Shown in pieces: positions 20,141-39,583 of a stretch of 39,737 nucleotides of DNA. The notes under the pieces were generated by a model. The model was not told the origin of the DNA. It made no database searches and saw only the letters and a list, made by a program, of their open reading frames with translations. Made by a program: the position numbers and the translations under genes. Numbering within the stretch: the first letter of the stretch is position 1; every line of letters begins with the position of its first letter. Source of the DNA: a virus; IMG/VR virus record IMGVR_UViG_3300037247_001342, positions 1-39,737 of that record; one strand, written 5' to 3'.

Positions 20141-20271
20141 AGCGTTTGCGAGGAGTGAGTCGATTGCAGACCTACCAAGGCCAGGGACCCACCAAAGATC
20201 GTACCGCCAGAACAAACCCACGACGCAGCGGTCGCCAAGCATTCCAGAACGGAAACAACCATCTCAACATG

Positions 20272-20354
20272 AGGAAGGCGGAGGAGTCGAACCCCTAGCT
20301 GTCACACCACTCTGGTATTCGACACCAGTCGCCACCCACGCAGCAGCACCTTCC
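20272..20354 (-). tRNA. tRNA-Ser-like (CGA), divergent
   Basis: Acceptor GGAAGGT (20348-20354) pairs with GCCTTCC (20273-20279). The anticodon arm is CTGGT / GTCGAAT / ACCAG, giving T33 and anticodon CGA, which reads UCG serine codons. A 15-base variable region fits a class II tRNA. The T arm has GGGG-TTCGACT-CCTC with one mismatch. The D arm is short (TGC/GCG). The discriminator is T rather than the G usual for serine tRNA, and no CCA is encoded. It could be a working phage tRNA or a decaying one. Confidence 0.62.
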
Positions 20355-20366
20355 ATGAAAGGCTGA

Positions 20367-20471
20367 TACCGGGGATCGGATTTGAACCGATGACCTCCAC
20401 CTACACGGCGATCACCTGCGACAAACAAGTACTCCGAACGGTGGCGCTCTACCAGACTGAGCTAACCCGGT
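20367..20471 (-). tRNA. tRNA-like gene with 38-nt anticodon loop
   Basis: All arms but one are canonical. The acceptor is ACCGGGT (20465-20471) with CCCCGGT, one mismatch. The D arm is GCTC-AGTCTGGTA-GAGC, the variable loop AGGTC, the T arm ATCGG-TTCAAAT-CCGAT, and the discriminator A. The anticodon stem CCACC (20440-20444) pairs perfectly with GGTGG (20397-20401), but the loop between them is 38 bases (20402-20439) instead of 7. Inside that loop ACTTG / TTTGTCG / CAGGT (20414-20430) forms a second 5-bp stem with a 7-base loop. The anticodon therefore cannot be assigned. It may carry a small insertion, be a recombinant of two tRNAs, or be a pseudogene. Confidence 0.6.
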
Positions 20472-24166: not shown

Positions 24167-24439
24167 CTAATTGGATGCTAAACGCTGCTCGCTCACGGTG
24201 GCCTCCGTGATGACGAAAGCAGCGAATACAGGAATGACATACCCCTGCTTTGTGTCAGGCCATGCCTCCTTCTCGTCGGAGTAGCAGAACCGTTTGCTCG
24301 CTGGATCGAACCAGCCGATTTGTTCCAGGTTGGCGTACTTCCTCGCCGCCTCCACAATTGCATCGCTCTCCCGTCTGGTGAGTAGTGGCTCAGACGCATG
24401 ATCCCAGGTGATGAGTGCCTGCTGTAGTTCAGTCGGCAT
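24167..24439 (-). CDS. Cassette-array paralog, last gene
   Basis: 90 residues. N-terminus MPTELQQAL is dictated by the junction element. The centre has AIVEAARKYANLEQIGWFD, the core motif shared with other genes in this array. The C-terminal VITEAT (codons at about 24199-24213) is a junction relic, but here the frame reads on through VSEQRLASN, so the array ends with a read-through junction. The start overlaps the previous stop by 11 bp, with GGAGGAC as ribosome site. Function unknown. Confidence 0.72.
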   Translation of the reverse strand: MPTELQQALITWDHASEPLLTRRESDAIVEAARKYANLEQIGWFDPASKRFCYSDEKEAWPDTKQGYVIPVFAAFVITEATVSEQRLASN

Positions 24440-24899
24440 CGGTGTCCTCCGGGATACCCAACCAACCAAGAAGCCCACTCAGACCTGTTGCCAGATAGTC
24501 CACCATGCGGTACATCAACTCCGGTTTAAACCCCTCATCCCTGAGGAGAATGGCCGTCCGTTTTCCCTGTCCGACAGCCCATCCGAGTTCGAGATGAGCC
24601 GACCGACCGCAGGGCATAATCAGGACGAACGTGTCGGCCCACTCCATCGCCGCCAGATCCTTCTTGAAACCATCGACGGCTACCGGATGGTCAATCAGTT
24701 CGGCGTACCGTTGAGCCGACCAACCTTCCCAGTTCGGGTCGATCTCAGACCAGTGGAATCCGTTGTCACCGTCCTCGGGATTACGGAAGTCGTAGACATC
24801 AAACCCGGCGAGACGCAGACGGCCAACGACAGCCGGTTGAAGCCTGTTGCGCCATGAGGACGCCACATAGATTCGTCGGGTGTCAAGCTCAGTCGGCAT
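24429..24899 (-). CDS. Nucleoside 2-deoxyribosyltransferase-like protein
   Basis: 156 residues. RRIYVASSWRN near the start and ADTFVLIMPCGRSAHLELGW plus AVGQGKRTAILL (89-119) match the Rossmann-like nucleoside 2-deoxyribosyltransferase superfamily, in which the Glu of the H-L-E-L-G-W segment (E104) sits at the active site. Members cleave or exchange bases on nucleosides or nucleotides; in phages they may adjust nucleotide pools. It is the only enzyme-like cargo in the cassette array, flanked by two nearly identical junction elements; its C-terminal GIPEDTDAD belongs to the junction. Substrate unknown. Confidence 0.72.
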   Translation of the reverse strand: MPTELDTRRIYVASSWRNRLQPAVVGRLRLAGFDVYDFRNPEDGDNGFHWSEIDPNWEGWSAQRYAELIDHPVAVDGFKKDLAAMEWADTFVLIMPCGRSAHLELGWAVGQGKRTAILLRDEGFKPELMYRMVDYLATGLSGLLGWLGIPEDTDAD

Positions 24900-25065
24900 C
24901 GGTGTCCTCCGTGATACCAGCACTACGCCCCGCTTCGATAGCATTGGCAAACCATCCGAGCAGGGTCCCCTCGTCCGGCACTTCATCACCGAAGCGGTCC
25001 ATGTATTCGTCTACCCATTTCGATGCATCTGTTCCCATTTCAGCAAGTAGGTCTATATCGCTCAT
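24889..25065 (-). CDS. Cassette-array small acidic protein
   Basis: 58 residues (MSDIDLLAEMGTDASKWVDE ...), acidic and helical, ending in the junction-encoded AGITEDTDAD. The ATG overlaps the preceding stop as ATGA with GGAGGAC upstream; its own stop overlaps the next start by 11 bp. No family recognised. Confidence 0.65.
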   Translation of the reverse strand: MSDIDLLAEMGTDASKWVDEYMDRFGDEVPDEGTLLGWFANAIEAGRSAGITEDTDAD

Positions 25066-25121
25066 TCGTCCTCCGTAATGCAGGGATAACTAATTGTCGT
25101 GACGTATTCGGAATGGCTCAT
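25062..25121 (-). CDS. Cassette-array mini-ORF
   Basis: 19 residues (MSHSEYVTTISYPCITEDE) between two short-type junctions, with ATGA overlaps on both sides and GGAGGAC before its ATG. It may be a translated leader, the remnant of a deleted cassette or a real micropeptide. Nothing but the ITEDE end is shared with other genes. Confidence 0.5.
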   Translation of the reverse strand: MSHSEYVTTISYPCITEDE

Positions 25122-25267
25122 TCGTCCTCCGTTAAACGGTCAAGCACAAGACCAGCCTCGAAAACCTGAACGTCTTTATCGTGATCTTGAAAGTTCTCAT
25201 CCCACGCCGACAACACAGCGATTATGAATTGGATCAACCAGACTCGTACATAGTTAGGGTCGCTCAT
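25118..25267 (-). CDS. Cassette-array small protein
   Basis: 49 residues (MSDPNYVRVWLIQFIIAVLS ...). Residues 7-20 are hydrophobic enough for a short membrane or core helix, followed by an acidic stretch. It ends LTEDE, a junction variant. ATGA overlaps on both sides and a GGAGGAC ribosome site support translation. Unknown function. Confidence 0.62.
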   Translation of the reverse strand: MSDPNYVRVWLIQFIIAVLSAWDENFQDHDKDVQVFEAGLVLDRLTEDE

Positions 25268-25428
25268 TCGTCCTCCGTGATACCCGCCGTGAAAACTTGG
25301 AGATAAGCGTTCAGTAGGTCGATTTCTCGAGCTTGTGGATACAACACCGCCAAACGCTCAATGGACTGCCTAGCCAAATCTCTCATTTGAGCTTCTACTT
25401 GTTCCGAAATTACTTTGAGTTCTTTCAT
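25264..25428 (-). CDS. Cassette-array small helical protein
   Basis: 54 residues (MKELKVISEQVEAQMRDLAR ...), amphipathic helical with a possible coiled coil, ending in junction-encoded TAGITEDE. Its ATG overlaps the preceding TAA as TAATG, with GGAGGCC upstream. No family recognised. Confidence 0.65.
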   Translation of the reverse strand: MKELKVISEQVEAQMRDLARQSIERLAVLYPQAREIDLLNAYLQVFTAGITEDE

Positions 25429-25679
25429 TAGGTGGCCTCCGTGATACCGAGAGCAGCGTTGACAATCTGCGTAACGTCTTCTCGACCTGTGGTGATGTAG
25501 TTGAAACGTGCTTCGATGGCTGCGTCAATGTCCAGAGGTGGTCTACTTGTCGCCGCCTTCACGATGACTTTGAGCATGTCCACTCCACACTGGCCTAGGT
25601 ACTCGTCAAGGGCGTTGTCCCTGATGTCCTGTTCCATTGCTGGCACCCATTCGAGGGCATCTTGTAGTTCAGTCGACAT
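25428..25679 (-). CDS. Cassette-array paralog
   Basis: 83 residues. MSTELQDAL at the start, a diverged core motif VIVKAATSRPPLDIDAAIEA in the middle, and the junction C-terminus NAALGITEAT. The spacing of these three parts matches the paralogs starting at 26733 and 28182. The start overlaps the preceding stop by 11 bp. Function unknown; helical prediction suggests a small protein-binding module. Confidence 0.7.
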   Translation of the reverse strand: MSTELQDALEWVPAMEQDIRDNALDEYLGQCGVDMLKVIVKAATSRPPLDIDAAIEARFNYITTGREDVTQIVNAALGITEAT

Positions 25680-25815
25680 TGGTGTCCTCCGTGATACCCG
25701 ACTCGTCCTCATCCTCTGGTCCTTCGACAGTTGGTTGAGCCTGCATCCACCGCTTTGTTGCCATGTGTCGTTCCCACCGTTCACGGTCGATCTGATCTTG
25801 TAACTCAGTTCCCAT
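25669..25815 (-). CDS. Cassette-array small protein
   Basis: 48 residues (MGTELQDQIDRERWERHMAT ...). A charged helix is followed by an acidic tail (EGPEDEDESG) and the junction end ITEDTNVD. It overlaps both neighbours by 11 bp. It shares the MxTELQD start with its neighbours but lacks the central VEAARKYA motif. Unknown function. Confidence 0.65.
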   Translation of the reverse strand: MGTELQDQIDRERWERHMATKRWMQAQPTVEGPEDEDESGITEDTNVD

Positions 25816-26101
25816 TGGGGTTGCCCTCCGTGATACCGAGAGCCATAGCAGCGCCTTGGTGCATGACGTTTCGCACCATTATCGGGTTCTCTCCCCACAG
25901 TTCGGCGTACCTATCAGCAGCTTGACTAATTGCGTCGAAGTCGGGGTTGGCTACTCGTCTCGCCGTCTCCACGACTCTTGTTGTCGCTTCACGAATCTCT
26001 TTGATCGGCGAGTTGAGTTGTCCTACTAGGCGAATGTCATCTTGTAGCTTGGGCATTCGGCTTCCTCCGTGATACCAAAGTTCTGTGGCTGACTTATCCA
26101 T
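25805..26101 (-). CDS. Cassette-array paralog with fused N-terminal relic
   Basis: 98 residues from the ATG at 26101, which overlaps the previous stop by 8 bp with AAGGA upstream. Residues 16-98 (MPKLQDDIRL ... RVVETARRVANPDFDAISQA ... AMALGITEGNPNGN) are a standard array paralog, and an internal ATG at 26056 with its own GGAGGAAG site could equally be the start (83 residues). The first 15 residues (MDKSATELWYHGGSR) are translated from a junction element read in a shifted frame. They look like a collapsed cassette fused in frame to this gene. Confidence 0.68.
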   Translation of the reverse strand: MDKSATELWYHGGSRMPKLQDDIRLVGQLNSPIKEIREATTRVVETARRVANPDFDAISQAADRYAELWGENPIMVRNVMHQGAAMALGITEGNPNGN

Positions 26102-26459
26102 TGGTGTCCTTCTCCGTGATACCGAGAGCCCCGTAAGTCTTCGTCAGTTCCTCAATTGCTCTGGCAGCCTGATGGGACTCCCAGTGAAATTCCCAATAGT
26201 CACCTTCTGGTCCGTGGTGGACATGTTGTATACGCTGGAACCAAGTCACATCAGGCCATCGCTCTTTGTGTGGTCCTTCCTTGATCCACAGAGTGCCATC
26301 ACCTTCTTGGAAGTGTCCCGCACAAGACTGGTAGGTGGTAAAACCTAGAGACCTCAAGGCATCGACCAGTGGGACCATTGCTCGATCAGGTAGTCCGTCT
26401 GGGGCATCGGTGGCTTTGTCTCGTGTTGCATCCCACACGGCGTATGAGTCAGTCGGCAT
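26094..26459 (-). CDS. SCxGH-motif protein in the cassette array
   Basis: 121 residues. LVDALRSLGFTTYQSCAGHF matches a motif (helix, GxxTxxSCxGH) seen in small uncharacterised phage and bacterial proteins; the Cys and His may bind metal. A Trp-rich segment follows (WPDVTWFQRIQHVHHGPEGD). The end GALGITEKDTNG and the start MPTD are junction-encoded, so this is a cargo gene unrelated to the paralog family. The start overlaps the previous stop by 11 bp. Confidence 0.68.
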   Translation of the reverse strand: MPTDSYAVWDATRDKATDAPDGLPDRAMVPLVDALRSLGFTTYQSCAGHFQEGDGTLWIKEGPHKERWPDVTWFQRIQHVHHGPEGDYWEFHWESHQAARAIEELTKTYGALGITEKDTNG

Positions 26460-26733
26460 GGGTGTCCTCCGTGATCCCGAGAGCAGCATTGACTTCTCGA
26501 GTGGCTGATTTCAGAAAGCCCCTGCGAGTCGTCTTGAACTCATCATCGTTTTGGTTGTCAGGGTGATCCCAACTCCCTTCACCAAAGAAGTTATCCCAGC
26601 GAGACTTTGCGGCGGCTTCGTAGTCGGGGTTGTCGTACTTCCTCGCCGCCTCCACGATGTTTGCGAGCGGTGAACCGGGATCGGGTGCGTAGTCTCCCGA
26701 GAACAGGTCGAGGTCGGCTTGTAGGTCGGTCAT
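26449..26733 (-). CDS. Cassette-array paralog
   Basis: 94 residues, one of the two best-preserved paralogs. It has MTDLQADLDL, then NIVEAARKYDNPDYEAAAKS, a variable Asp/Asn/Trp-rich loop, and TREVNAALGITEDTHAD. The ATG overlaps the HNH gene's stop as ATGA, and its own stop overlaps the next start by 11 bp. No outside family is recognised. It probably binds a protein or nucleic acid; catalysis is unlikely. Confidence 0.72.
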   Translation of the reverse strand: MTDLQADLDLFSGDYAPDPGSPLANIVEAARKYDNPDYEAAAKSRWDNFFGEGSWDHPDNQNDDEFKTTRRGFLKSATREVNAALGITEDTHAD

Positions 26734-27540: not shown

Positions 27541-27892
27541 GGGACAACTCGTCGGATTTTCGTATCATCGCTTCGCTAGAGGTGAGCGTCTCGCCGTTGT
27601 AATAGCGTTTCAAGAATTCTGCCCAAGGGTATTTTTCGGTGGTCTCGGGTAGGGCAGGAGTCGGCTGTTGACGTATCCGGGCGCGGGTTCCTGCGATCAG
27701 TTCCGCCGGGCGCGGAGGCCACTTCGCCTTCTCCTCGTCGCCGGTCAACCGTTGCAACAGGATCTCCCACACCAGGTCGGCGGGAAGCGAATCGAAGTCG
27801 TCGACAAGACGGTGGGCGTTGGCCCACGAGTCGACGGTCCCCCAACGATCCTCGATGTACTCGACCAGTTCGGCGTACTCCTCCCGTGTCAC
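27530..27892 (-). CDS. Hypothetical helical protein, possible replication accessory
   Basis: 120 residues from a GTG at 27892 that shares a TAGTG overlap with the previous stop; the frame is open further upstream but that part runs through the neighbouring gene. LVEYIEDRWGTVDSWANAHR and LVWEILLQRLTGDEEKAKWP then RPAELIAGTRARIRQ resemble helical N-terminal segments of phage helicase-loader or replisome accessory proteins. That resemblance is weak. It overlaps the next gene by 11 bp. Confidence 0.58.
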   Translation of the reverse strand: MTREEYAELVEYIEDRWGTVDSWANAHRLVDDFDSLPADLVWEILLQRLTGDEEKAKWPPRPAELIAGTRARIRQQPTPALPETTEKYPWAEFLKRYYNGETLTSSEAMIRKSDELSRGR

Positions 27893-28182
27893 TACTCCCC
27901 CGCCTTCTCCGTGATACCGAGAGCAGCATTGACGGCACCCGTCGACACTCTGAGAAAATCGGCTTGCTCTGATTCGTACATCGCCTCCCACGTCAGCTTT
28001 GATCCGCTGCGACGGCCAACCTCATCGGAGTAATGCCGGGCGGCGGCCTCGTAGTCGGGGTCGGCGTACTTCTCCGCCGCCTCCACCACCTTGACGTTGA
28101 CGACACGCTCCCATTCAGGGTTGAATTCATAGAGGAACACTTCCTCATCCAGCAATTCGCGGAGTTCTTGCAGGTCGGTCAC
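27892..28182 (-). CDS. Cassette-type paralog outside the main array
   Basis: 96 residues. MTDLQELREL, then VVEAAEKYADPDYEAAARHY, a variable segment (SKLTWEAMYESEQADFLR) and GAVNAALGITEKAGE. It is clearly homologous to the paralog starting at 26733 yet separated from it by three unrelated genes, so family and junction moved or duplicated together. ATGA overlap upstream, TAGTG downstream. Unknown function. Confidence 0.72.
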   Translation of the reverse strand: MTDLQELRELLDEEVFLYEFNPEWERVVNVKVVEAAEKYADPDYEAAARHYSDEVGRRSGSKLTWEAMYESEQADFLRVSTGAVNAALGITEKAGE

Positions 28183-28478
28183 TCCTCCTCCTCCCCGGCG
28201 ATGAGGGCGGCATCAATAATGTCTCGCTGAACCTGGCGAACGTCCTCCTTCTCGTGTGTACCCAGAGATACAAAGTCGCTGCTGTAGATGTCTTCTGCCA
28301 TGAGGTCATCGCTCGCTTCGTAGTCGATGGTCACTTCCTCACGGGAACCACCAGGACAATCACCAGGGAAGTAGTCGCCAGAGAGTCCCCGGTCACCAGC
28401 TTCTAACGGTTTACTTGTCGTCCACGGATGCGGTTCAAACAGACCGTGCTTACAGAGGGTCTCTCGGTAGAAGCTCAC
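28179..28478 (-). CDS. Hypothetical acidic protein
   Basis: 99 residues. The N-terminus has Cys and His (LCKHGLFEPHPW, GDCPGGSREE), and the rest is acidic (SDDLMAEDIYSSDFVSL). It ends in IDAALIAGEEEE, whose GAG codons act as the ribosome site for the next gene. ATGA overlaps on both sides. Not recognised. Confidence 0.62.
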   Translation of the reverse strand: MSFYRETLCKHGLFEPHPWTTSKPLEAGDRGLSGDYFPGDCPGGSREEVTIDYEASDDLMAEDIYSSDFVSLGTHEKEDVRQVQRDIIDAALIAGEEEE

Positions 28479-29002
28479 TCCTCCTCCTCACGAAAAACGG
28501 TTGTGCTGCCGTCTGCACGCGCTTGAAGATTGCGTGCCAGCGACAACATGAAGTCGTAACCCGGTGGCGGCGTAGGGCTATACGACGCTCGACGAATGAT
28601 CGTCAACCTCGCCGGAGGAGCGGCGTCGTTCAGCAGGGTCGGTGGTTCTGTTGGACCGAAAGTCATCACGCCCCACGCTGCGGGGAAGGAGTCCATGATG
28701 CCACCCGACAGCACGGCGGGCGGTGCCACTAGGTAAAACTGGTTGGACAGGTCGATCGCAGCTTTGGCTTTCTCCGGTTTGTCGAGCTCCCGTTTCAAGT
28801 CGGATCGGGAGGCTTTCACTTCGTACGCCACGCGCAGTTGGTTCTTCGACGGCCACAGGTGGAGAGCGAACGCGTCGATGCTCTGTTGATAGAACCCGCC
28901 TGCCACTCGCACCTCCTCGACATAAACCCATGTTCTGCTATTGCCGTTGCCCAAGCCACTGTGCCGTTCTCGGAGAGCCTCGAGGATGGCTCGGGTCGTC
29001 AT
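28475..29002 (-). CDS. MmcB-like PD-(D/E)XK nuclease
   Basis: 175 residues. SIDAFALHLW (D43) followed by LRVAYEVKASRSDLKREL (E61, K63) and AAIDLSNQFYLVAP match the restriction-endonuclease-fold MmcB/DUF2161-type repair nucleases; the D...E-x-K triad is intact. Such proteins act on damaged or branched DNA or may attack foreign DNA. The C-terminus REEEE doubles as a ribosome site. Coupled to neighbours by ATGA. The family call is by motif; substrate unknown. Confidence 0.68.
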   Translation of the reverse strand: MTTRAILEALRERHSGLGNGNSRTWVYVEEVRVAGGFYQQSIDAFALHLWPSKNQLRVAYEVKASRSDLKRELDKPEKAKAAIDLSNQFYLVAPPAVLSGGIMDSFPAAWGVMTFGPTEPPTLLNDAAPPARLTIIRRASYSPTPPPGYDFMLSLARNLQARADGSTTVFREEEE

Positions 29003-29355
29003 TCTTCCTCCTCACCGTCGATGAGTGCAGCGACCAGACCCGTCCTGGTCCGCTCACTCGGGTTGAGGGCGTAGACCCGGATGTCGTGAAGCGTCTGGTG
29101 GTCGACGGCGCAGCACAACGGTCCGAGTTCTTGCATCGCCGCTGGAATCCGGTCGACCTTGCCGACTTCGCCGCCGTCGCGGGTGAACACCATGACATCG
29201 TCGAGCCGGACGAACGCTTGGAACACCAGCGACGTGAACGTGGCGACACCTTGCGGCCAGTGACGTTTGAAATAGTGGAGGTGCCGGTGGCAGAAGTCAC
29301 GACGGAAATGGATCTGAATGGGGTTGGCGGCACCGCCCGCCGGGGTCATCGTCAT
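28999..29355 (-). CDS. Hypothetical protein
   Basis: 118 residues from the ATG at 29355, which overlaps the previous stop as ATGA. His/Arg-rich start (IHFRRDFCHRHLHYFKRHWP) then a mixed part (FVRLDDVMVFTRDGGEVGKV; LCCAVDHQTLHDIRVYALNP). It ends LIDGEEEE, the purine-rich junction of the second type. His and Cys spacing does not form a standard metal site. Unknown function. Confidence 0.62.
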   Translation of the reverse strand: MTMTPAGGAANPIQIHFRRDFCHRHLHYFKRHWPQGVATFTSLVFQAFVRLDDVMVFTRDGGEVGKVDRIPAAMQELGPLCCAVDHQTLHDIRVYALNPSERTRTGLVAALIDGEEEE

Positions 29356-29786
29356 GGTGTCTCCCCCCAGTCGGGCAGGGGCAGGTGTTCCGCCCACGCT
29401 CCGGCCATTTCGTCGATCATCAACTCGAACGTCTGACGGTACGACTCCCACAACAGGGTGTAGGCGCTGTTCGCCAGCTCCATCGGAAGGGCCAACCGGA
29501 AGATGTCACTGGCATCCCGGTACCACAGGTGCAGCAACTCGTGGACGATGGTGTGACGGAGACGTTCGCCACCAGTTTCGACGGCTCGGGTGGCGACTTC
29601 AAGGTCGGCCCGGTACTGAGCGTTGGTCGGTGAGATCGAAGCCAGGTTGGTGTCGCTCTGACCGGGGTATTCGGTAACCAGGATGTTGATGAGCCAACGG
29701 TCGAGCCACATCTTCTCTTTCAGTAGCCAGACGTAGCGTGCCAATTTTTTTTGGAGACGGCCCTTCTCCGCTTGGGTGATGCTCAT
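29352..29786 (-). CDS. HExxH metallopeptidase-like protein
   Basis: 144 residues from the ATG at 29786 (MSITQAEKGRLQ), with an ATGA overlap. HTIVHELLHLW (78-88) has the zincin HExxH motif (H82, E83, H86) in a helix, as in SprT/ImmA-type proteins. A Glu/Asp-rich helix downstream (FELMIDEMAGAW) could give the third ligand. ImmA/IrrE members cleave repressors, so a role in induction is possible, but the N-terminal helix-rich part does not show that family's other signatures. Function open. Confidence 0.65.
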   Translation of the reverse strand: MSITQAEKGRLQKKLARYVWLLKEKMWLDRWLINILVTEYPGQSDTNLASISPTNAQYRADLEVATRAVETGGERLRHTIVHELLHLWYRDASDIFRLALPMELANSAYTLLWESYRQTFELMIDEMAGAWAEHLPLPDWGETP

Positions 29787-33170: not shown

Positions 33171-33445
33171 TCGCCGAATTCCCCTCTCAGGTAGGCACGG
33201 TCCGACAGGCTGAACAAGGCGATGACCGAGCCCCAGTCCGGGCCGTAGGAACGTTCGATGCGGTGACGGCGGGCGAGACGCAACGTCGCCACCCGGATCG
33301 TGTTGTCGGTGGCGTCAGGTCTTAGCCTCTGGACCTCCATCACTATCTGCTCGTGGCTGAACTGTTGGCCCGTGTGAGTCTGCAAGATGTCGACAATCAG
33401 CGCGGGCACGCCGGTCTCCATTAGCTGACCCCGCTTGGCGTTCAT
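33167..33445 (-). CDS. Winged-helix DNA-binding protein
   Basis: 92 residues. TGVPALIVDILQTHTGQQFS, HEQIVMEVQRLRPDATDNTI and RVATLRLARRHRIERSYG make a three-helix wHTH with a wing; the second segment fits the recognition helix. Could regulate early genes or act in replication. ATGA overlaps on both sides. Confidence 0.65.
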   Translation of the reverse strand: MNAKRGQLMETGVPALIVDILQTHTGQQFSHEQIVMEVQRLRPDATDNTIRVATLRLARRHRIERSYGPDWGSVIALFSLSDRAYLRGEFGE

Positions 33446-34524
33446 GCTGGTCCGTCCCCGGCGGCGGCGACCGCGGCGCTCACCACCAGTTGCGCCTCAT
33501 CAGCGGTCAGGTTCACCGCGACCGCGGCAAGGTGGTCGTCGGTCAAGTCCTCGGGGTTGGGGTAGTCCTTCTCGCCGAGCGCCACCGCCAGGTCGAGGTT
33601 CTTGTCGACGATGACCTCGAACAGCGCCGTCCGAGCCATTGCCTTCCTGGTGTCCACGTCATCGGTGTTGATGGTCTTGCCGATCTCGTCGAGAACCCAC
33701 TTCCAGTAGTTGCCTCGCTTGCCGACTTCGACGGTGCGGGGACCGGCGTGGCCGCTGTCGTTGAGCCACTCGGCCGACGACTTCTCGAGATCCTTGTGCC
33801 AGCCTGACCACGAGTAGAACTTGCCCTTGTATTCGCGTTTACCGCCACACTTGTCAGCTTCGTTGGAACAACGCCAGAACGGTTTGCTGGTGTGTTCGGA
33901 GACGCCGACGAGTTCCCCGTTGACCGCGAGGCAGGCGGGACAATGCGGGTCGTCAGGTGAGGCCGGTGTGTCGACCGAGGAGCCAGACCCGGAGAACCCG
34001 GCGCCACTCATCTCCTCAGAAGGAGTGGCGGCGAAACCGGCCATCACCATGACGCTTGAAAGGGCTACCCGACACACCTTGGAGACGGCGCGGGTCTCCG
34101 CCATTGAACGGACCGCGTAGGAGTCACTGTTAGCCCAATTGGATTCTGAGGTGCGACATTCCGCTTCGGCGTGGGAGATCGCCACGTTGTCAGAGAGGCG
34201 ACGTAACGCGCAGCGCGCCTCCCAACCGTTGTTCAGAGGCTTGGTCCATTCAATGTCGGGGATCAACCCGAATTGGGAGGCGAGAAACTGCCAGCCCTCA
34301 ACGTTGACGTGAGGTTTACTGCCACCCAAATCCAGAGCCAACCCCTGTTCGGTGACCACCTCGACCAGAATCTTGGCTCGAGCCCTTGCCTCGGCGAGTT
34401 GTTGGGCCGGGTCCTGCGAGGCGTATATGGAGACCTGACCGACCGGAGCCGCCACAGGAACAAGATCAGACGACGCTTCCACCACCTCGTCAACCTCGAC
34501 CACTTCGGCGGGAGCGTCACTCAT
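33442..34524 (-). CDS. Putative single-strand annealing protein (Rad52/Erf-like)
   Basis: 360 residues from the ATG at 34524 (ATGA overlap). Residues 70-175 (PHVNVEGWQFLASQFGLIPD; GWEARCALRRLSDNVAISHA; SDSYAVRSMAETRAVSKVCR) follow the beta-sheet plus helix pattern with the S-M-A-x-T-R-A helix seen in Erf/Rad52-like annealing proteins of actinophages. Then a Ser/Gly linker, a Cys4 zinc ribbon (C195, C198, C219, C226) and a helical C-terminus (260-360). It would anneal complementary single strands in phage recombination, with the nearby nucleases as partners. The fold is inferred by pattern. Confidence 0.6.
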   Translation of the reverse strand: MSDAPAEVVEVDEVVEASSDLVPVAAPVGQVSIYASQDPAQQLAEARARAKILVEVVTEQGLALDLGGSKPHVNVEGWQFLASQFGLIPDIEWTKPLNNGWEARCALRRLSDNVAISHAEAECRTSESNWANSDSYAVRSMAETRAVSKVCRVALSSVMVMAGFAATPSEEMSGAGFSGSGSSVDTPASPDDPHCPACLAVNGELVGVSEHTSKPFWRCSNEADKCGGKREYKGKFYSWSGWHKDLEKSSAEWLNDSGHAGPRTVEVGKRGNYWKWVLDEIGKTINTDDVDTRKAMARTALFEVIVDKNLDLAVALGEKDYPNPEDLTDDHLAAVAVNLTADEAQLVVSAAVAAAGDGPA

Positions 34525-36237: not shown

Positions 36238-36566
36238 CGGATACGAGTCCCTGACTGGACGGCGGGTGATGCCAGTTCCCACGGCTTGTTGAGCAAGGCG
36301 AGAAGGGTGTCTGGCCGGTCTAAACCCCAGTGGACCGACAGGTTGAACACCGCGATGTTGAGGGGCAGACGGTCGTCGTACTGGTGGTTGAGGCGAACCG
36401 CCCAGTCGTACAAACGGACCAGGCCCTCACCCTCCGGGCAGTAGACGCCCTGGTGGGGTCGGCAGTCGCAGGAGGACGCCAATAAGGGATCGCCGATAGT
36501 CGAGTCGGCATTGGGCGGAGTCTTGGCGTCCTCCCGGACATTGTGAGAAGGGGCGAAGCCGGTCAT
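36234..36566 (-). CDS. Hypothetical protein
   Basis: 110 residues. An N-terminal flexible part with CDC and YCPEGE, then a helical part (LYDWAVRLNHQYDDRLPLNI; PDTLLALLNKPWEL). ATGA overlaps on both sides. Not recognised. Confidence 0.58.
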   Translation of the reverse strand: MTGFAPSHNVREDAKTPPNADSTIGDPLLASSCDCRPHQGVYCPEGEGLVRLYDWAVRLNHQYDDRLPLNIAVFNLSVHWGLDRPDTLLALLNKPWELASPAVQSGTRIR

Positions 36567-37477
36567 GTCGTTTCCTCCGCGGAGGGGCCAATCGACATTT
36601 CGCTTTCATTATTCGCTTCGGCCCCTCCGTGAAGACTCTTCCACTCGATCAGCAAATCGCCGTAGAACGCTTTGACGGCGATGATTCGAGAGGTCTTGTG
36701 GTTCTTGCCTCGTTCCTTTGCCTCGTCGTACTTGCTGCGGTAGGGCTCACAGCGATGCATGATGATTTGGTCGGCAAGACCCTTCGGACCGAGGGCAATG
36801 ACTCGAAGAGCCGGTTTCCAGCTGGATTGAACCTCGTGGATGTGGCGGGGTAGGCGCCCTCGAACGACGTGGAGTCCGGCGTAATGCCAGAGCGAGCGGA
36901 CACCGGACCCGAAGCGAGGGGAGAGCATGACCCCCACACAACGAACAACCTTCGTTTCGCTCTCATGTTCAGTTTCGTCCGTTGTGTGGGGGTCTCCGAC
37001 ACCAGGACCATCATCGAACTCACGCGCCACTTCGGTGCCAGAAAACTCGTCACCACCACCATTCGCTTCTTCGCTCTCAGGCTCTCCTTCGATGGCGGTG
37101 ACGAGACATTGAGTACCCGGCTGATAGAACGGAGCAAGAGTGTGACCCATAGAACATTTCTGGCCGGGAAACCGGAGCGGATCACCGATCTCGCCGATAG
37201 CTCGAGCGGTAAGAGGACCGGCGAGCCCTTTCAACGGTTCGAGGAACGGCCACAACTCATAAGTCCTCAACTCATGACCCAGACGATTTTTACAACGCTT
37301 CTCGATGGTGAAGAACCACTCGGCAGCGACATAATCCTTCCGCGACTGCGACGCTTTCCGCATCTTCTGGGCACCCTCGAACGCTTTGGCGTAGGCACTC
37401 AGCCGGGCAGTCGCCTCGTTGATGTACCGGGAAGGCGGACCACTGCTGTCCTCGATCTCAGGAGTGTTATCGGTCAC
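36563..37477 (-). CDS. IS110-transposase-like HhH protein, phage variant
   Basis: 304 residues. LAGPLTARAIGEIGDPLRFP and, 85 residues later, VRSLWHYAGLHVVRGRLPRH plus PALRVIALGPKGLADQIIMH resemble the C-terminal helix-hairpin-helix half of IS110/Transposase_20 enzymes. The N-terminal DEDD nuclease half of those enzymes is not seen. An acidic disordered insert (EPESEEANGGGDEFSGTEVA ...) splits the two parts. No insertion-sequence ends or target duplication are visible, so it is probably a resident phage DNA-binding protein derived from or related to that fold. ATGA on both sides. Confidence 0.58.
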   Translation of the reverse strand: MTDNTPEIEDSSGPPSRYINEATARLSAYAKAFEGAQKMRKASQSRKDYVAAEWFFTIEKRCKNRLGHELRTYELWPFLEPLKGLAGPLTARAIGEIGDPLRFPGQKCSMGHTLAPFYQPGTQCLVTAIEGEPESEEANGGGDEFSGTEVAREFDDGPGVGDPHTTDETEHESETKVVRCVGVMLSPRFGSGVRSLWHYAGLHVVRGRLPRHIHEVQSSWKPALRVIALGPKGLADQIIMHRCEPYRSKYDEAKERGKNHKTSRIIAVKAFYGDLLIEWKSLHGGAEANNESEMSIGPSAEETT

Positions 37478-38277: not shown

Positions 38278-38706
38278 ATGTCGGACAGACAGCAACGCCA
38301 CCGGGAGGCACTCATGCAACAGTCATACTCATTCGACCACCCACTAGCCGACAGGCTCCGTAGAGAGGCGGGCAGCGCCGGACTCAACCACTCGGACATC
38401 GGCAGTCGGATAGGTATGAGCCATACGACTGTCGGCGAATGGCTCAACGGGAAGCGTCGTCCTAGTCGACAACAATGCTTCCTCCTCGAAGACATCCTGG
38501 TCGTCCAAAAGGGAGAGCTGGCGATTCTCGCCGGGTACACACCAGCAGACGATCACCGTATGGAGCGTGACGACGACGGAACTCTCACGCTGGTTTACGA
38601 TGCGGCAGCGTTGGAGGAGCGACTAGCCCCTGTAGCTCTACTGCCGATCGGAGCACTCACTCAGCCCGTCCCGATGGCGTTGCAGCCAGTCGATCTTGCC
38701 GCCTGA
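38278..38706 (+). CDS. Cro/CI-type repressor
   Basis: 142 residues. LADRLRREAGSAGLNHSDIG, SRIGMSHTTVGEWLNGKRRP and SRQQCFLLEDIL are a lambda-type five-helix HTH (residues 22-75). The C-terminal 60 residues are short and hydrophobic and lack a LexA-like Ser/Lys protease site, so induction is probably not by self-cleavage. It is transcribed divergently from the long early operon, from a probable leaderless promoter overlapped by an inverted repeat. Likely maintains lysogeny by repressing the operon that begins at 38177. Confidence 0.82.
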   Translation: MSDRQQRHREALMQQSYSFDHPLADRLRREAGSAGLNHSDIGSRIGMSHTTVGEWLNGKRRPSRQQCFLLEDILVVQKGELAILAGYTPADDHRMERDDDGTLTLVYDAAALEERLAPVALLPIGALTQPVPMALQPVDLAA

Positions 38707-38710
38707 CCCC

Positions 38711-38736
38711 CCACTAGGGTCTTTCGGCCCTAGTGG
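38711..38736 (+). terminator. Strong hairpin between repressor and integrase
   Basis: CCACTAGGG (38711-38719) and CCCTAGTGG (38728-38736) are perfect complements around an 8-base loop, starting five bases after the repressor stop. No T-tract follows. It may terminate or attenuate the repressor transcript before the integrase, or be a protein-binding site. Confidence 0.6.
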
Positions 38737-38776
38737 AACACAGACCCACCGCCGATGCAGTCCGGGAAACCGCTTT

Positions 38777-39583
38777 ATGCGCGCCCCGGACTACGCCGAG
38801 TACCTGATCGGCCAGGGCAAGACGGTCAAGACCGTGCGGGATTACCAGAGGGAGGTGGATTTGGCCTTGCGCTGGTTCGCTGCTCACCGTCTCGATCTCG
38901 CCAGCGCTTCCCCTTCTGACCTGGTTGCCTATTCGGAGACCCGACCCAACACACCCGCTATCCGCGCCCACATGAGATCGGCTCTCCGTCACTACTGGAA
39001 GTGGCAGCGAGTGGACGGATGGCCGGATGCTATCCGGGTTCCGACGCCCGGTCTGATGGTTTGCAAAGCTCTCACACCCGAAGACGCCCGAGCGATGGTC
39101 AAAACAGCGGTCGGATGGTGGCGGGAAGGGACCGCGGTTCTCGCTGGTGCCTACCTGGCGCTGCGAAACGAGGAGATCGCCTCGATGCGATGGGAAGGTT
39201 TCGACTCCAACCTGGATTGGTACACCCTGGTCGGGAAGGGCAACCGGACCCGCACCCTTCCGGTTCACCCCGTCATGGTCGCCGAACTTCGAGGACGCCG
39301 CAACGATTCGCCCTATGTGTTCGAGGGTCGATTCAGTGGCCATGTGACCCACGCGACGATTTGGAATTGGACTGTCATGGTGGCCAAGGAAGCCGGAGTG
39401 ACCGAACACGTGTGGCCTCATCGGCTCAGGCACACCGCTCTGGCCACCGCCAACGACAACACCGGGAACCTTCGTGCTGTCCAGAGCTTCGCGGGTCACT
39501 CCCGTCCAGAGACGACCGCCGGGTACACCCGGACGACGGCGAGGCGGCTGCGTGAGGTTTCCGACAGTCTCGACTACCTCTGA
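38777..39583 (+). CDS. int: Tyrosine-family integrase
   Basis: 268 residues from the ATG at 38777 (MRAPDYAEYLIGQGKTVKTV); an in-frame start 81 bases upstream adds an unlikely Pro-rich leader. SAM-like core-binding domain at 1-90, catalytic domain 95-268. Catalytic residues visible: R130 (LALRNEEI), K154 (VGKGNR), H215-x2-R218 (HRLRHT), H241 (GHSRPET) and Tyr250 (TAGYTR). It integrates the phage by site-specific recombination. About 268 residues is short for phage integrases, since the arm-binding domain is missing, so it may need only simple sites. The attachment site is not identified. Confidence 0.9.
   Translation: MRAPDYAEYLIGQGKTVKTVRDYQREVDLALRWFAAHRLDLASASPSDLVAYSETRPNTPAIRAHMRSALRHYWKWQRVDGWPDAIRVPTPGLMVCKALTPEDARAMVKTAVGWWREGTAVLAGAYLALRNEEIASMRWEGFDSNLDWYTLVGKGNRTRTLPVHPVMVAELRGRRNDSPYVFEGRFSGHVTHATIWNWTVMVAKEAGVTEHVWPHRLRHTALATANDNTGNLRAVQSFAGHSRPETTAGYTRTTARRLREVSDSLDYL

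Follow-up and report, generated by a model that had tools for sequence, protein, structure and literature searches.

It has long been asked how single genes can enter dense, translationally coupled phage operons and leave them intact. At most mosaic joints, no homology is seen. The joint considered here is itself repeated and coding on both sides, and between its copies sit recognizable cargo genes, the relatives of which do not carry the fused tail. This joint recurs in an array of small genes in IMG/VR virus record IMGVR_UViG_3300037247_001342, which was analyzed over its whole length of 39.7 kb (39,737 nucleotides, nt; hereafter the window). Because the record encodes a major head protein, a terminase, a repressor-like protein and a tyrosine integrase, the virus is most likely a temperate tailed phage. 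The array genes and gene b all lie on the minus strand within a leftward operon (5' to 3': b, c, d, e [HNH], f, g, h, i, j, k, l, m, n, o, p). The array stops after p, and the next long minus-strand open reading frame (ORF) begins ~500 nt on.

Thirteen minus-strand copies of a GGTATCACGGAGGACACC(G)ATG...TGA-like element were counted, 12 at 24.2-26.5 kb and one at 27.9 kb. Matching to GGTATCACGGAGGACACC with ≤3 mismatches returned nine minus-strand sites, none outside 24197-26478 (0.06 expected from shuffles), and ACGGAGGACRM-N(0,3)-ATG returned six exact matches (0.03 expected). The total of 13 was counted by reading ACGGAG cores at junction-like places, which adds l/m and m/n, where the variant is shorter, and g/h and b/c, where the copy is more diverged. 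True gene/gene boundaries account for 11 of the 13 (b/c, f/g, g/h, h/i, i/j, j/k, k/l, l/m, m/n, n/o, o/p); the others are an internal remnant between g and h (26059-26076) and a copy that closes gene p and is followed by no gene (24197-24214). The repeated dual-coding junction array claimed at 24189-26490 in a preliminary description of this DNA is thus real; its 24189 end, however, is a relic copy and not a boundary.

The longest form of the element is 30 nt (GGTATCACGGAGGACACCGATGCCGACTGA), ten codons that finish the upstream gene (GITEDTDAD and the stop) and contain both GGAGG and the ATG of the next gene. The identical 11-nt stop/start overlap previously noted in five copies was recovered as ATGNNNNNTGA at f/g, h/i, i/j, n/o and o/p. 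Junctions k/l, l/m and m/n form an ATGA subtype that ends ACGGAGGACGAATGAGC and overlaps by 4 nt; at l/m and m/n the GGTATC half is lost wholly or partly, yet the starts are still served. Because genes overlap at the junctions, coupled translation across them is plausible. GATGCCGACTGA alone was not significant (5 matches vs 5.45 expected) and is exact only at n/o and o/p. These two copies are identical at 29/30 nt, and gene o therefore lies between direct repeats; near-identical repeats over the stop and start at both gene ends were also seen for other genes. Among short repeats on the minus strand, the junction repeats are the dominant family over the whole window.

Rarity was assessed by comparing the 18 nt before each start that overlaps an upstream ORF and grouping junctions with at least 14 of 18 matches. 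In a convenience sample, not a random one, of 203 slices from other phage records, with 3,524 candidate junctions in 2.31 Mb, the largest similar group was 2, and the group in the window was 6. The array is known from a single IMG/VR record for which no relative was found, as might be expected of an assembly or annotation artefact in which short repeats of a metagenomic contig were mis-joined; this is very improbable, given repeats that are no longer than ~45 nt and variable, frames that stay open across nearly all junctions, and a flanking operon that continues normally.

Homology links genes b, f, h, j and p, which have in common an MxxLQ head, an internal VEAARKYANPD block and a C-terminal AALGITE. 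The genes between junctions had been called unrelated or highly diverged, which holds for the cargo in n and o but understates the ordinary part, these five being paralogs. Because each paralog carries its own AALGITE C-terminus, tandem duplication plus decay accounts for much of the array. Where residues are identical, agreement at third codon positions is 95% in AALGITE, 92% in the internal block and 37% elsewhere, and amino-acid identity outside the two conserved blocks is 19%. Two short DNA blocks, not one, have stayed similar while the paralog sequence between them diverged, perhaps through selection, gene conversion or recombination. High third-position agreement in AALGITE and low agreement in the rest of the gene suggest that the junction probably arose as the 3' end of a gene of this type. 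The internal block GTGGAGGCGGCGAGGAAGTACGCC was located in paralogs at 24332-24355, 26632-26655 and 28063-28086 (minus strand), with third positions nearly as conserved as those of the junction. An AlphaFold model of f (mean predicted local distance difference test score, 62) was too weak for a fold search. An exact 13-mer, GTACGCCGAACTG (YAEL), occurs at 24696, 25898 and 27866 (minus strand) in the three unrelated genes o, h and c.

Genes n and o fit exactly between junction copies, and the frame is kept at both ends. Gene o is a nucleoside deoxyribosyltransferase (phrog_12607, E 2e-57), and its relatives (50-63% identical) were found in mycobacteriophages, a Rhizobium phage and IMG/VR contigs. 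Similarity of these relatives to o starts at the equivalent of residues 5-10, and those with readable C-termini (Amochick, Papyrus, RR1-B, L009, L011) have other tails, never GI(T/P)EDTDAD. In the AlphaFold model of o, most of residues 9-146 are confidently folded, and the first four and last ~10 residues are of low confidence. Over ~residues 10-47, ending WFANAIEAG, gene n matches small proteins or domains from phages of Streptomyces, Pseudomonas and Microcystis; past ~residue 47 the relatives continue differently, and the junction-coded tail is not common to them. Because the relatives of both genes in other phages are without the junction-coded head and tail, n and o are cargo fused to the element. 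The Streptomyces and Pseudomonas phage relatives of n are encoded at or near thymidylate synthase, and for this reason n and o may be a nucleotide-metabolism pair. The junction-coded tails are acidic and probably disordered.

These observations bear on a plain history of tandem duplication and decay, in which all array genes derive from the b/f gene, rapid divergence and indels made their bodies unequal, n and o entered a single time through illegitimate recombination, and the junctions are inert in exchange. The five clear paralogs, the MxTELQ head retained by i, and the remnant-like k, l, m and i are what such a history would leave. It was considered unlikely, since n and o have independent outside relatives and lie exactly between junction copies in frame, and since the paralog bodies outside the two blocks are at chance-like third-position identity, against near-identical junctions.

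The edge of the element was examined at seven junctions with mutually unrelated upstream bodies (f as one paralog, g, the g-h remnant, i, k, n and o), aligned on the CGGAG core. Pairwise column identity was ~0.24 over 30 upstream columns and then 1.00 at the GG of GGTATC. On the downstream side, by reading, the sequence is common to about TGA and slightly further in paralogs. This sharp upstream edge, the DNA-level conservation reaching beyond the Shine-Dalgarno sequence to GGTATC, and the position of GGAGG (nearly always 4-9 nt before a start) also favor a start-associated signal for translation initiation, read by the ribosome or a phage factor, kept by selection, and coding upstream only through gene overlap. 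Precedents are the start-associated sequences (SAS) of cluster K (PMC3203893) and EF (PMC7302621) phages, which are 13 bp long and conserved across the cluster. The element resembles them as a repeated sequence that carries a Shine-Dalgarno core, precedes the starts of unrelated genes by a few nt and lies in the non-structural half; SAS differ in being unrelated in sequence and mostly intergenic, whereas the element codes on both sides and is confined to one array plus gene b. Nine SAS sites were found in TM4, seven intergenic and one (29167) inside the upstream gene, which contradicts the preliminary remark that none of these sequences is known to encode the C-terminus of the upstream gene.

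Several findings count against such a signal, to which a low probability was assigned. Genes a, b, f and others of the same operon start without the element, l/m and m/n lie on starts without all or part of GGTATC, and the 24197 copy serves no start. The SAS consensus GGGATAGGAGCCC was not enriched in the window (13 matches with ≤3 mismatches vs 14.8 expected), and none of its matches is a junction copy. The element was also judged not to form an RNA hairpin, since its consensus fold reaches -0.9 kcal/mol with 3 pairs and no pair shows compensatory changes. Historical origin and functional signal are not mutually exclusive.

The best account, with a chance put somewhat above even, is tandem duplication giving in-frame direct repeats, followed by swap or deletion of gene bodies there by recombination. 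A gene for a small helical protein (the b, f, h, j, p family) would have been duplicated in tandem within an accessory stretch of the leftward operon. Because the last ~10 codons of this gene hold the Shine-Dalgarno sequence and overlap the next start, each duplication would have made a ~30-nt direct repeat coding on both sides. The repeats could then have served as homology patches (boundary sequences), and recombination at or beside them would have deleted some bodies (m, i, the g-h remnant and the terminal relic) and put unrelated ORFs in place of others (n and o, probably g). A body gained in this way would have acquired the in-frame tail GI(T/P)EDTDAD, presumably tolerated, and its neighbor would have kept a ready-made ribosome site. 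The retained paralog head of i and the 19 codons of m fit deletion remnants. Phage annealing proteins are reported to recombine short or diverged homologies in other phages (PMC3945230, PMC2327257). From repeated junctions to active cassette exchange, the step is one that we infer.

Four points weigh against duplication followed by recombination at the repeats. Relatives of the virus or the element were not found in the collections searched, so that gain, loss or swap went unobserved, no relative with different cassette content having been found. A recognized annealing recombinase was not identified in the window, where the protein encoded at 33442-34524 matches no family of known function. 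The transition from body to tail is sharper than expected of random homologous crossovers and could mean selection on a functional element. Clear outside relatives of g, i, k and l were not found in searches made for each, and m was too short to search; g, k, l, i and m could for this reason be decayed or fast-evolving paralogs rather than cargo. The cassette arrangement proposed in the preliminary description therefore stands for conserved junctions around different cargo (the relatives of n and o and the sharp edge); gain, loss or shuffling among relatives was not seen, as no relative of the virus was found in the collections searched.

Searches for relatives covered the junction, the array genes and the structural genes. 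The exact junction 18-mer had no match in a scan of IMG/VR, and a degenerate junction scan returned 67 contigs, with a single match in all but one and some tens expected by chance. The contig with two matches (L064) was rejected as an unrelated tandem repeat of ~300 bp. No relatives in viral contigs were found for gene f, the family alignment or the terminase, and f had none in genome contigs either; f and b had no phage match, and f no plasmid match. Only distant relatives of the capsid were found (≤37% identity), none with array genes or junctions. Weak two-copy similarity in Papyrus genes 79-81 was unconvincing on reading, and a 14-nt repeat in L010 was also looked at.

A close parallel is Corndog gene 14 (cluster O mycobacteriophage), which is flanked by a 17-bp direct repeat over the stop/start codons, with one copy in relatives without the gene; its loss or gain by recombination between the repeats was proposed (PMC4351075). 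Both loci have a direct repeat over gene junctions flanking a small gene. Corndog has one gene, two copies and relatives with one copy, whereas the array has 13 serial copies of ~30 nt and a shared encoded C-terminal tail, and no relative of it was found. Lambdoid boundary sequences, attributed to Clark et al. 2001 in PMC3029335, are short gene-junction sequences proposed as homology for module exchange. They are common between genomes, whereas the element is repeated within one genome; junctions of the lambda and HK620 nin regions were not repeats of each other within a genome. As expected of genes flanked by boundary sequences or direct repeats, o and n occur elsewhere without the repeat. 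Integron cassettes have a recombination site with a conserved folded single-strand hairpin, and the element has no such conserved fold. Phage gene swapping at repeats is known; novel relative to these parallels are the serial copies, the shared encoded tail and the identifiable fused cargo.

Table 1. Genes and junction copies of the array and of gene b; coordinates are those of the whole window.
Feature	Position	Strand	Description
gene b	27892..28182	-	full-length paralog; VTDLQ...VVEAAEKYADPDYEAA...AALGITEKAGE
junction b/c	27901..27918	-	GGTATCACGGAGAAGGCG
gene f	26449..26733	-	full-length paralog, first of array; own start without element
junction f/g	26449..26478	-	30 nt, 11-nt overlap
gene g	26094..26459	-	SCxGH protein; relatives not found
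junction g/h	26094..26123	-	GGTATCACGGAGAAGGACACCAATGGATAA
junction copy in g-h remnant	26059..26076	-	inside ~45-nt remnant
gene h	25805..26056	-	diverged paralog
junction h/i	25805..25837	-	GAGGGCAACCCC variant, 11-nt overlap
gene i	25669..25815	-	48 amino acids, truncated; MGTELQ head kept
junction i/j	25669..25698	-	30 nt, 11-nt overlap
gene j	25428..25679	-	diverged paralog
junction j/k	25428..25448	-	TAATG overlap
gene k	25264..25428	-	54 amino acids, GC 0.45
junction k/l	25264..25284	-	ATGA subtype
gene l	25118..25267	-	49 amino acids
junction l/m	25118..25135	-	ATGA subtype; GGTATC half lost
gene m	25062..25121	-	19 codons, near-empty cassette
junction m/n	25062..25079	-	ATGA subtype
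gene n	24889..25065	-	cargo: small domain; related genes of other phages lie near thymidylate synthase
junction n/o	24889..24918	-	30 nt, GGTATCACGGAGGACACCGATGCCGACTGA
gene o	24429..24899	-	cargo: nucleoside deoxyribosyltransferase (phrog_12607); junction-coded head MPTEL, tail GIPEDTDAD
junction o/p	24429..24458	-	30 nt
gene p	24167..24439	-	paralog, last of array
terminal relic copy	24197..24214	-	no downstream gene

Other features of the window were recorded. The sole tyrosine integrase (38696-39583) lies 12 kb from the array and was matched by phage integrase families; integron cassettes are expected to have an integron integrase close by. The protein encoded at 33442-34524 (minus strand) has a SMAETRAVSKVCRVAL motif and matches phrog_19042, of unknown function; phage relatives were not found, and we take it, as a guess, to be possibly an annealing or single-strand binding protein. 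At 28179-29451 (minus strand), three successive genes upstream end in EEEE, coded by an GAGGAGGAG(GA) Shine-Dalgarno sequence that overlaps the next start, and this is a simpler, second type of dual-coding junction within the operon. In a 304-amino-acid protein (36563-37477, minus strand), residues 193-262 match the TIGR-Tas RNA-guided endonuclease family NCBIfam NF052498 (E 1.5e-12; 48 bits against a cut-off of 100), and phrog_4285 (transposase) also matches there; a tandem guide array was not seen in the vicinity. A tRNA-Ser(cga) was called by ARAGORN at 20271-20354 and an Rfam tRNA match at 20367-20471, both on the minus strand.

A stronger proposal, considered unlikely, sees in the element an evolved serial cassette acceptor: as a dual-coding linker it would allow uptake or loss of single ORFs within one operon, and the array would turn over through recombination at its linkers. 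If true, such a linker would always give the next gene a start and the last gene a harmless in-frame tail. Apart from this proposal, the repeated joint with its cargo offers a concrete, testable route by which cassettes could be exchanged in frame and tiny phage genes could arise.

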